Positions 4,398 through 16,326 of a DNA stretch of 64,000 nucleotides are shown here, in pieces (the stretch's first letter is position 1; each line of letters opens with the position of its first letter). Under the pieces are notes generated by a model. The model saw nothing but the letters and a program-made list of their open reading frames with translations, was not told the DNA's origin and did not search any database. Source of the stretch: Rhizobium viscosum (GTDB taxonomy: Bacteria > Pseudomonadota > Alphaproteobacteria > Rhizobiales > Rhizobiaceae); assembly GCF_014873945.1 (NCBI RefSeq), contig NZ_JADBEC010000003.1, forward strand, positions 310,001-374,000. The letters are read 5' to 3'. The position numbers and the translations under genes are program-made.

Positions 4398-7261
<2,864 letters not shown>

Positions 7262-7262
<1 letters not shown>

Positions 7263-7647: not shown

Positions 7648-8784
7648 TCAGCGTTTGTAGGTCGGCGTGATGAAGGGAAGAGCAGAGACGGTCACCGGCA
7701 GGTACTTGCCGCGCACTTCGGCATAGACCTGTGTGCCTGCTGCCGTGTGGGAAACCGGCACGTAACCCATGGCGACGGGGCCTTCGACGGAGGGGCCGAA
7801 ACCACCAGAGGTGACTTCACCGATCTCTGTCTTGCCCTCGGCATCGGCATAGAGCTTGGCATGGCCGCGCACCGGCGCCTTGCCCTCGGGCTTCAGGCCG
7901 ACGCGCTTGCGGGTTGCACCCTTGTCTAGTTCGCCGAGAATGCGGTCTGCACCCGGAAAGCCGCCAGCGCGGGCGCCTCCGGTGCGGCGTGCCTTCTGCA
8001 TGCCCCATTCAATGGCCGCTTCGACCGGTGAAGTGGTCGTGTCGATATCGTTGCCATAGAGGCAGAGGCCGGCTTCGAGGCGCAGCGAGTCACGGGCGCC
8101 AAGGCCGATCGGCTCGACATCTGGATGCTCGAGCAACCGGTTGGTGACATCTACGGCCTTGTCGGCGGGAATGGAGATTTCAAAGCCGTCTTCCCCGGAA
8201 TAGCCGGAGCGCGAGACGAGACAGGAAACGTCGTGCAGGCGGCAGTGGCGCACGTCCATGAACTTCATGGCGGCAACATCGGCCCAGAGTTCTGCGAGCG
8301 CTTCGACGGCGCGCGGACCCTGGAGGGCAATCAGCGCGCGGTCGAGGACAGTGATCTCGCAGGTGTCGGAGAGATGCTTCTGCAGGTGCGCGATATCGGC
8401 TTCCTTGCAGGCGGCGTTGACGACGACGAAGAGGTGGTCGTCGAGATGGGTGATCATCAGGTCGTCGAGGATGCCGCCATTCTCATCCGTGAAGAAACCA
8501 TAGCGCTGGCGTCCTTCGGCAAGACCGAGAATATCGACCGGTACGAGGCTTTCGAGTGCGAGCGCCACATCCTCATACTGGCCGGACTTCGCCTTGATGA
8601 TGACCTGCCCCATATGGGAGACATCGAAAAGACCGGCGGCGGTGCGGGTCTGCAGGTGCTCCTTCATGACTCCGGTCGGATATTGCACCGGCATGTCGTA
8701 ACCTGCGAAGGGCACCATGCGGGCGCCGAGCGACAGATGCAGCGCGTGAAGCGGGGTTTTCTTGAGGGCAGCAGTATCGTCCAA
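7648..8784 (-). CDS. gcvT: Aminomethyltransferase, glycine cleavage T protein
   Basis: A 378-residue T protein that moves the methylene group from aminomethyl-GcvH to tetrahydrofolate and releases ammonia. The family patterns [26 protein letters not shown] and [20 protein letters not shown] are all present. The likely start is a TTG at 8784 ([13 protein letters not shown]), with a full GGAGG site six bases ahead and no in-frame ATG nearby. It is the first gene of gcvTHP and lies directly behind the glycine riboswitch. Confidence 0.97.
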
Positions 8785-8861: not shown

Positions 8862-9024
8862 GAGCCCCCTCTGTCCCTGTGCCTGAGATTGTTATCCCTT
8901 CGGCGGGCGTTTCGAGAACGCCTCTCTCCAGAGTTCCGTCTGCCCCTTGTGGTCCTTTCGCCTGAGAGTTTCCGGGGCGGTTGCTCCTTCGGCACCGGCA
9001 TTGTGTGCCGGATTCTCCCAACAA
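8862..9024 (-). ncRNA. Tandem glycine riboswitch
   Basis: The leader of gcvT on the minus strand contains two consecutive glycine-aptamer cores. The first has GGGAGAAT, GCCGAAGGAGCAA and AACTCTCAGGC followed by AAAGGACCAC. The second has GGAGAGAGGCG, GCCGAAGGGATAACAATC and TCTCAGGCACAGGGACAGAG. These are the conserved P1/P3 junction blocks of the glycine riboswitch class. Such pairs normally bind glycine and raise gcv expression. The ends given are approximate, read from the first and last conserved blocks. Confidence 0.93.
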
Positions 9025-9034
9025 GGTTGCGGCA

Positions 9035-15896: not shown

Positions 15897-16211
15897 TTAG
15901 GCCGTCATTTTGAGGCCGGCAATGCCGGCGACGATCAGCGCAATGCAGATCAGACGAGAGGCGTTTGCCGCATCGCCCAGAAGCCAGATGCCGAGCAGCA
16001 CCGTGCCGACCGTGCCAATACCGGTCCAGACCGCGTAAGCGGTGCCAATCGGCAGGCTTTTGACGGCAAGACCGAGCAGGATGATACTCACCACCATGGA
16101 AATGACCGTCAGAATCGTCGGCATCGGACGGGTGAAGCCATCGGTATATTTCAAACCGATTGCCCAACCGCACTCAAAAAGGCCAGCGAGAAAAAGCAGG
16201 AACCAGGCCAT
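15897..16211 (-). CDS. sugE: SMR-family guanidinium exporter (Gdx/SugE)
   Basis: A 104-residue small multidrug resistance protein with four helices. The conserved glutamate is E13 in LFECGWAIGLKYTDGF, and KSLPIGTAYAVWTGIG is diagnostic of the SugE/Gdx branch rather than EmrE. This branch exports guanidinium in exchange for protons. The ATG at 16211 is chosen since AAGGAG is six bases ahead; the ATG three bases upstream is too close. A candidate guanidine-II riboswitch sits immediately upstream, which supports the substrate. Confidence 0.93.
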   Translation of the reverse strand: MAWFLLFLAGLFECGWAIGLKYTDGFTRPMPTILTVISMVVSIILLGLAVKSLPIGTAYAVWTGIGTVGTVLLGIWLLGDAANASRLICIALIVAGIAGLKMTA

Positions 16212-16229
16212 CATATTCTCCTTGTCAGA

Positions 16230-16288
16230 GCGAGGCCGTCCCCGCGACTTTGCGATCCGGACTGATCCGAGCGCCGCAGTCGTCTGCG
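16230..16288 (-). ncRNA. Candidate guanidine-II (mini-ykkC) riboswitch
   Basis: On the minus strand two hairpins with ACGR tetraloops precede the sugE ribosome-binding site. P1 at 16288-16275 is CGCAG-ACGA-CTGCG. P2 at 16245-16230 is GCGGGG-ACGG-CCTCGC, with one G-U pair. The linker is about 29 bases. The AAGGAG begins six bases after P2. Two ACGR-loop hairpins, the second next to the Shine-Dalgarno, define the guanidine-II class, in which two guanidinium ions dock the loops and free the ribosome-binding site. Found by eye; no covariance-model score. Confidence 0.82.
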
Positions 16289-16296
16289 TCACACGC

Positions 16297-16326
16297 TATA
16301 TGTGCGAGGGAACGGCTGACTTCAAG
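16297..16326 (-). promoter_or_regulatory. Candidate promoter for the sugE leader
   Basis: CTTGAA and CATATA are 18 bases apart on the minus strand (or ACATAT at 17). Initiation about seven bases on would place the transcript start just ahead of riboswitch hairpin P1. Confidence 0.45.

Follow-up and report, generated by a model that had tools for sequence, protein, structure and literature searches.

A probable guanidine-II riboswitch of a three-hairpin rhizobial subtype in the leader of a gdx (sugE) gene

Guanidine-II (mini-ykkC) riboswitches have been described as translational ON switches in which two guanidinium ions are bound by kissing ACGR loops (PMC9300104, PMC9094411, PMC9561414), and in the crystal the guanidine is contacted by three loop residues (A, C and G) and by the G that precedes the loop (PMC5486947). 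The linker that joins the two hairpins is 7-40 nt long and has been characterized as flexible and poorly conserved (PMC7544219; PMC9561414). The switches of sugE/emrE genes in E. coli and Pseudomonas aeruginosa belong to the same gene family as the locus studied here. In these papers the anti-Shine-Dalgarno sequence is placed in the linker for E. coli (PMC9300104, PMC9094411) and in a P0 helix formed by the flanks for P. aeruginosa (PMC9561414), and translational ON control was proposed for the former switch and measured in vitro for the latter. A consensus of the class with 1977 members is presented in PMC12335538, and a mini-ykkC match in Mesorhizobium is already in print (PMC5596092).

The window, i.e., the whole stretch of 64 kb of DNA analyzed here, contains on its minus strand two hairpins that can be read directly from the sequence. 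P1 (CGCAG-ACGA-CUGCG, 16275-16288) has five pairs and its loop at 16283-16280; P2 (GCGGGG-ACGG-CCUCGC, 16230-16245) has six pairs, one of them G-U, and its loop at 16239-16236. They are separated by a linker of 29 nt (16274-16246), which falls within the published range, and are followed by the Shine-Dalgarno (SD) sequence AAGGAG (16218-16223) of the gdx (sugE) gene. An earlier note on this DNA had described two hairpins with ACGA and ACGG loops and 5-bp and 6-bp stems before the sugE/gdx ribosome-binding site, with a linker of about 29 bases, and its coordinates are exact. All the guanidine-contact residues named above are kept in both hairpins and, as in RF01068 (guanidine-II, mini-ykkC), the element consists of two tandem, G+C-rich and G-C-closed ACGR hairpins upstream of sugE/gdx. 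P1 and P2 are the sole pair of ACGR hairpins on either strand of the window (both stems of 5 bp or more, spacing of 15-60 nt), and 40 shuffles of one window strand, each carried out as two halves, gave a single pair in total. The folding energy of the leader is not unusual (z 0.11). Single-sequence folding was, therefore, set aside as uninformative for this element, and the case rests on motif and conservation rather than on stability.

The downstream gene (15897-16214, minus strand) has 104-105 codons; of the two AUGs in the AUGAUG at 16214-16209, the second (16211) is the conserved start, where most orthologues begin to match. The protein matches PF00893 and scores 133.4 bits with the SugE equivalog NF008512, above the cutoff of 126. 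Compared with solved SMR chains it gives 101-103 bits with 6wk5 (103.3) and 8vxu, which we take to be Gdx structures, 6wk5 presumably being Gdx-Clo, and at best 39.3 bits with EmrE (8uwu). This bears out the assignment to the Gdx branch made in the earlier note, and the gene product, a candidate guanidinium exporter, probably expels guanidinium. One genus member (L031, G001:C1:2787682-2787840) has a gdx match that is limited to the C-terminal half (residues 53-105) and is possibly truncated.

The distribution of the element was examined in 41 genomes including that of the organism itself; 25 belong to the genus, of which 20 carry a full-length orthologue and five do not (one of these has a fragment). 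In this genus set, which was chosen as the full-length orthologues and includes the window, P1 and P2 are identical in 20/20 leaders, including the loops and the G-C closing pairs, and the linker varies. Among named genomes, those of Rhizobium and of close Rhizobiales are the nearest relatives. Two ACGR hairpins were found in 152 of 188 gdx leaders, i.e., in 20/20 of the genus, in 70/88 from the family (88 top-scoring loci out of 174 matching genomes, with three loci again of the same genus) and in 62/80 from named genomes (the best 80 of 583, with the same species partly repeated), as opposed to 6/9400 shuffled leaders. The hairpin script failed in the remaining 36 leaders. By eye, 12 of these (L047, L068, L072, L073, L105, L109, L122, L152, L154, L156, L168, L192) keep two ACGR loops on short or mismatched stems, and in the others the element is absent or one loop is missing. 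The two hairpins were not found in the gdx leaders L041, L136 and L138 of Rhizobium, which are probable natural losses of the element; L041 and L136 contain apparent P2 remnants by eye. Because the stems are invariant within the genus, close relatives provide no covariation signal for P1 and P2. In other genera the stem sequences differ yet still pair, the changes being compensated (judged by eye for P2). Of the two features that the earlier note had proposed to look for in orthologous leaders, conserved ACGR loops are thus present throughout the genus set, whereas covarying stems are not seen within the genus and appear, as compensated changes, in other genera.

When identical cores were merged, 143 leaders remained, which the two loop-proximal pairs of P1 divide into 58 AG/CU leaders (that of the window included), 84 GG/CC leaders and one other. 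Members of the AG/CU subtype have AG-ACGR-CU in P1, a P2 that hardly varies and, as a rule, a third hairpin formed by the linker. In the window this third hairpin is imperfect and lies at 16252-16274 on the minus strand (-8.6 kcal/mol, z -1.6 for the linker fold). Linkers measure 15-40 nt in the 58 distinct AG/CU leaders and 13-34 nt in the GG/CC leaders, and fold to -3 kcal/mol or lower in 53/58 of the former (mean z -2.18) versus 23/84 of the latter (mean z -0.31). Since the sequences are related, the folded linkers should be regarded as a trait of the lineage and not as 58 independent events. A sequence-only alignment (A2) was made of 54 AG/CU cores, leaving out two further duplicate cores and L140 and L141, which have the subtype P1 and unfolded linkers of 15 nt. 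In A2 the linker helix occurs at one register directly after P1, with two-sided changes at 8/8 pairs and 85.2% of the cells paired. P1 has two-sided changes at 3/5 pairs in these 54 sequences; in P2 four of the six pairs never vary and the other two vary on one side only. For the whole structure, two-sided changes occur in 137 cells versus 41 in shuffles, and 93.7% of the cells pair, compared to 78.2% in shuffles and 35-49% with the partner slid, although the counted structure was drawn by hand from the same alignment and is, therefore, favored over the slid versions. RNAalifold, unprompted, returned the same three helices, including six pairs of the linker helix. The linker helix seems, therefore, to be selected, given the two-sided changes at all its pairs at a single register and the high proportion of folded linkers. 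The motif, its location and conservation, the gene family and the covariation of the P1 and linker stems are what the sequences show directly.

All 54 sequences went into a covariance model of the subtype, R1, which was used with strict filters, so that its counts are lower bounds. It identified the element in at least 36 of 297 genomes of the family, many of which were in the training set, and a comparison of coordinates placed 36/36 matches just upstream of gdx. In the class, where at most 14 candidates per genome were scored among those listed, it was found in at least 2 of 385 genomes, i.e., in the organism's own genome and in one genome of another family, where an SMR-like reading frame again follows. 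In L208 (1500-1590), from another family of the class, the leader of an SMR-like reading frame combines a GG/CC P1 with a linker hairpin that has a UUCG loop; more than one origin of linker hairpins is thus conceivable. Pseudomonas leaders, too, contain small linker hairpins. The occurrence of the class itself before gdx is known and ordinary. In the running text of the openly available literature searched for rhizobia or for a linker hairpin we found no description of the linker helix, of the AG/CU subtype or of its poor visibility to Rfam. None of the terms looked for is present in PMC1273637, which deals with alphaproteobacterial RNA motifs.

The subtype differs from the RF01068 class in the covarying third hairpin, the nearly fixed P2 and an A-U pair in P1, second from the loop, and most of its members lie under the Rfam cutoff. 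At gathering score, Rfam gave no match at the gdx leader of the window. In permissive mode RF01068 reached 17.2 bits (E 0.15), short of the gathering cutoff of 32 bits, which is a detection limit and not a property of the RNA class. The weak match misplaced P1, setting a false P1 without an ACGR loop in its stead, and in the RF01068 scan of the organism's own genome the gdx leader was absent among the six places listed. The significant score with the Rfam mini-ykkC/guanidine-II model that the earlier note had put forward as a check was, therefore, not obtained. Most likely the leader of the window is missed on account of its long, folded linker; L019, a sister that shares its P1 and P2 but has a shorter linker, scores 32.3 bits, just over the cutoff. 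Among 19 genus sisters scanned with RF01068, 12 gave any match up to E 10 and only L019 attained the cutoff. None of 20 AG/CU leaders from outside the genus (the first 20 of 31 by locus number) did so, which brings the AG/CU sisters to 1/39, as against 14/19 for the GG/CC leaders (the first 19 of 84 by locus number). Rfam's cutoff thus leads to an undercount of the guanidine-II class at rhizobial gdx genes, apparently because the RF01068 model treats the linker as unstructured. Rejection of the site on the Rfam score alone was overruled by the conservation and by an independent covariance model (R2), built from 29 sequences that all come from other genera. Scanned against the whole 64-kb window, R2 matched the entire aptamer (16289-16230, minus strand) with 53.5 bits (E 3e-8), and the sole other match up to E 10 scored 7.7 bits (E 5.8); the E-values are rough and the gap between the two scores is large. 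Together with the SugE-type gene, the recurrence of the two hairpins among gdx leaders and the compensated stems in other genera, this comparison of sequences supports the earlier reading of the element as a guanidine-II riboswitch.

The leader of the window also differs from the E. coli and P. aeruginosa switches in the position of its putative anti-SD sequence. Directly 3' of P2, and including its last C, lies a CUCU (16227-16230, minus strand) that, by complementarity, could pair with the SD, although over 4 bp only. In 55/58 AG/CU leaders the SD forms a stronger duplex with the sequence downstream of P2 than it does with the linker (mean -7.9 vs. -5.2 kcal/mol), a further difference from the RF01068 class. 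The same holds for 45/84 GG/CC leaders (mean -5.9 vs. -5.5 kcal/mol), and the shift is, therefore, marked in the AG/CU subtype but not exclusive to it. SD openness was computed for those leaders that contain GGAG (57/58 AG/CU and 73/84 GG/CC). When P1 and P2 were enforced, the mean openness rose from 0.16 to 0.33 in the AG/CU leaders and went from 0.32 to 0.28 in the GG/CC leaders; counting changes larger than 0.05, the SD opened in 39/57 and closed in 4/57 of the former, and opened and closed in 20/73 each of the latter. The opening is large in several sisters (L028, from 0.01 to 0.69; L078, from 0.02 to 0.59). The leader of the window, folded only to the AUG, showed a small change (0.77 to 0.82). 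A switch that consists solely of a local SD hairpin thus fits many sisters, but is poor in the window and was rejected. L054 and L060 have an apparent extra hairpin between P2 and the SD (by eye), which places the SD far from P2.

When 45 nt of coding sequence were included, the SD of the window went from 0.06 to 0.25 upon enforcement of P1 and P2, which costs 8.8 kcal/mol; in several sisters the exposure of the SD did not increase, or it decreased. In the unbound fold predicted in this way, the 5' arm and loop of P2 pair with the start of the gdx coding sequence (16196-16209, minus strand). This P2-to-coding pairing has a value of 1.00 in the window against 0.78 in synonymous resampling. It amounts to 0.89 vs. 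0.74 in 27 genus leaders (24 above the null mean, median rank 0.15), 0.60 vs. 0.48 in the 31 other AG/CU leaders (22 above) and 0.36 vs. 0.30 in the 84 GG/CC leaders (46 above). Because the conserved protein forces much of this pairing, it can be considered only as a possible part of the mechanism. Folding at equilibrium thus makes an ON direction and a platform around P2 likely, and the platform looks weak in the leader of the window; these calculations describe the equilibrium of the given leaders, and co-transcriptional folding might favor P1 and P2.

Taken as a whole, the gdx leader is very probably a guanidine-II riboswitch of a rhizobial three-hairpin subtype that places the exporter under guanidine-responsive ON control, most likely as a translational switch; its ligand, the kissing of its loops, the direction of control and the details of its expression platform are what we infer. 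By analogy with the solved isolated hairpins of the class, guanidinium would bind the ACGA and ACGG loops, which would kiss via C-G pairs, and the folded linker hairpin would shorten the span between P1 and P2. In the unbound state the sequence immediately downstream of P2 may sequester the SD by pairing, and the first gdx codons may pair with the 5' arm and loop of P2. A complete P2 would compete with this SD-sequestering structure, and for that reason the ligand would free the ribosome site and turn the exporter on. Several observations speak against this explanation, i.e., the subthreshold RF01068 score and the absence of the site from the places listed for the own genome, the slight response of the SD in the window and the energetic cost of the response with coding sequence, the lack of a P2 covariation signal in a genus where P1 and P2 are invariant and a subtype where P2 hardly varies, and the three Rhizobium leaders without the element. 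The weak RF01068 match (E 0.15) would also fit a chance pair of hairpins in GC-rich DNA, as would the unremarkable folding energy, but such a coincidence is practically negligible in view of the rarity of the pair in shuffled leaders and the R2 match. That the leader instead has a constitutive fold, is bound by a protein or affects RNA stability while being blind to the ligand here, i.e., that it is a decayed or repurposed riboswitch, is quite improbable. The stretch between P2 and the SD is one base shorter in the window than in its nearest sister, the SD hairpin is weak and some Rhizobium leaders lack the element; a decaying aptamer would, however, be expected to vary, and the window does not differ from the genus orthologues taken in its loops, the closing G or either stem.

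A more substantial alternative accepts the guanidine-II aptamer and regards the linker hairpin as a passive filler or spacer, with the ordinary control of the class through an anti-SD in the linker or a P0 helix. The published description of 7-40 nt linkers as flexible and poorly conserved agrees with this, as do the GG/CC linkers that also fold, the few AG/CU members (L103, L162, L113) in which the linker is the main partner of the SD and the GG/CC leaders with the stronger SD complement 3' of P2. It is harder to reconcile with the two-sided changes along the entire linker helix and the prevalence of folded AG/CU linkers. The linker of the window, moreover, offers little SD complement (-3.3 kcal/mol), though the stretch after P2 is hardly better (-3.8 kcal/mol). 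On balance we consider a merely passive linker unlikely, if far from negligible. Our proposal of a distinct three-hairpin guanidine-II architecture in Rhizobiaceae is itself tentative, and we would rate its chances at slightly under even. In this architecture the linker hairpin would pre-position the kissing loops, the linker would be freed from its anti-SD role, and the platform would lie 3' of P2, where the first gdx codons would form the alternative structure together with the SD complement and the 3' end of P2. If true, the dual use of P2 would explain why it hardly changes. The variant also offers a natural test of a question raised in the literature, namely how the two hairpins come together within a single strand and by what route their kissing affects the ribosome site. 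The linker hairpin, the AG/CU subtype and the likely different expression platform go beyond what the earlier note contained.

Other guanidine-related elements occur elsewhere in the genome of the organism. A match to the guanidine-I riboswitch (RF00442, C2:237735-237846, 89 bits), likewise a guanidine-sensing class, lies at a guanidine-type operon on another contig and is unrelated in its architecture, and an ordinary guanidine-II match (39.6 bits) is found in the same guanidine-carboxylase-like operon. In this operon (L229, G000:C2:228500-238500) the guanidine-I element (9347-9236, minus strand) is followed by an NMT1-like binding protein, a permease, an ABC ATPase (named by eye from its sequence), the guanidine-II element (6463-6414, minus strand), two DUF1989 genes and a urea-carboxylase-like gene. 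The guanidine-II element falls within the terminal part of the called ATPase frame. DUF1989 proteins and the urea-carboxylase-like enzyme are linked to guanidine. The layout of guanidine operons has been reviewed (PMC12186494). With these elements and that of the gdx leader, riboswitches seem to govern the use as well as the export of guanidine in this organism.

Upstream of gdx lies a YaiI/DUF188 gene, and 5' of P1 a promoter-like sequence, TTGAAG-17 nt-CAUAUA (16297-16325, minus strand), corresponds to the candidate promoter that had been noted just upstream. The pattern recurs 5' of P1 in 39/58 distinct AG/CU leaders (1.0 expected by shuffling) and in 24/84 GG/CC leaders (1.4 expected), and it is plausible that transcription starts a few bases 5' of P1. 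Between the YaiI gene and this promoter the window contains an inverted repeat, GGCAU-ggcagcu-AUGCC (16352-16336, minus strand), a possible terminator or operator, which by eye is kept in many Rhizobium leaders. The window also holds a single glycine riboswitch aptamer (8940-9031, minus strand, 64.8 bits), which precedes a gcvT-like reading frame (7648-8784); a glycine-dehydrogenase-like frame is located at 4398-7262 (both named by eye).
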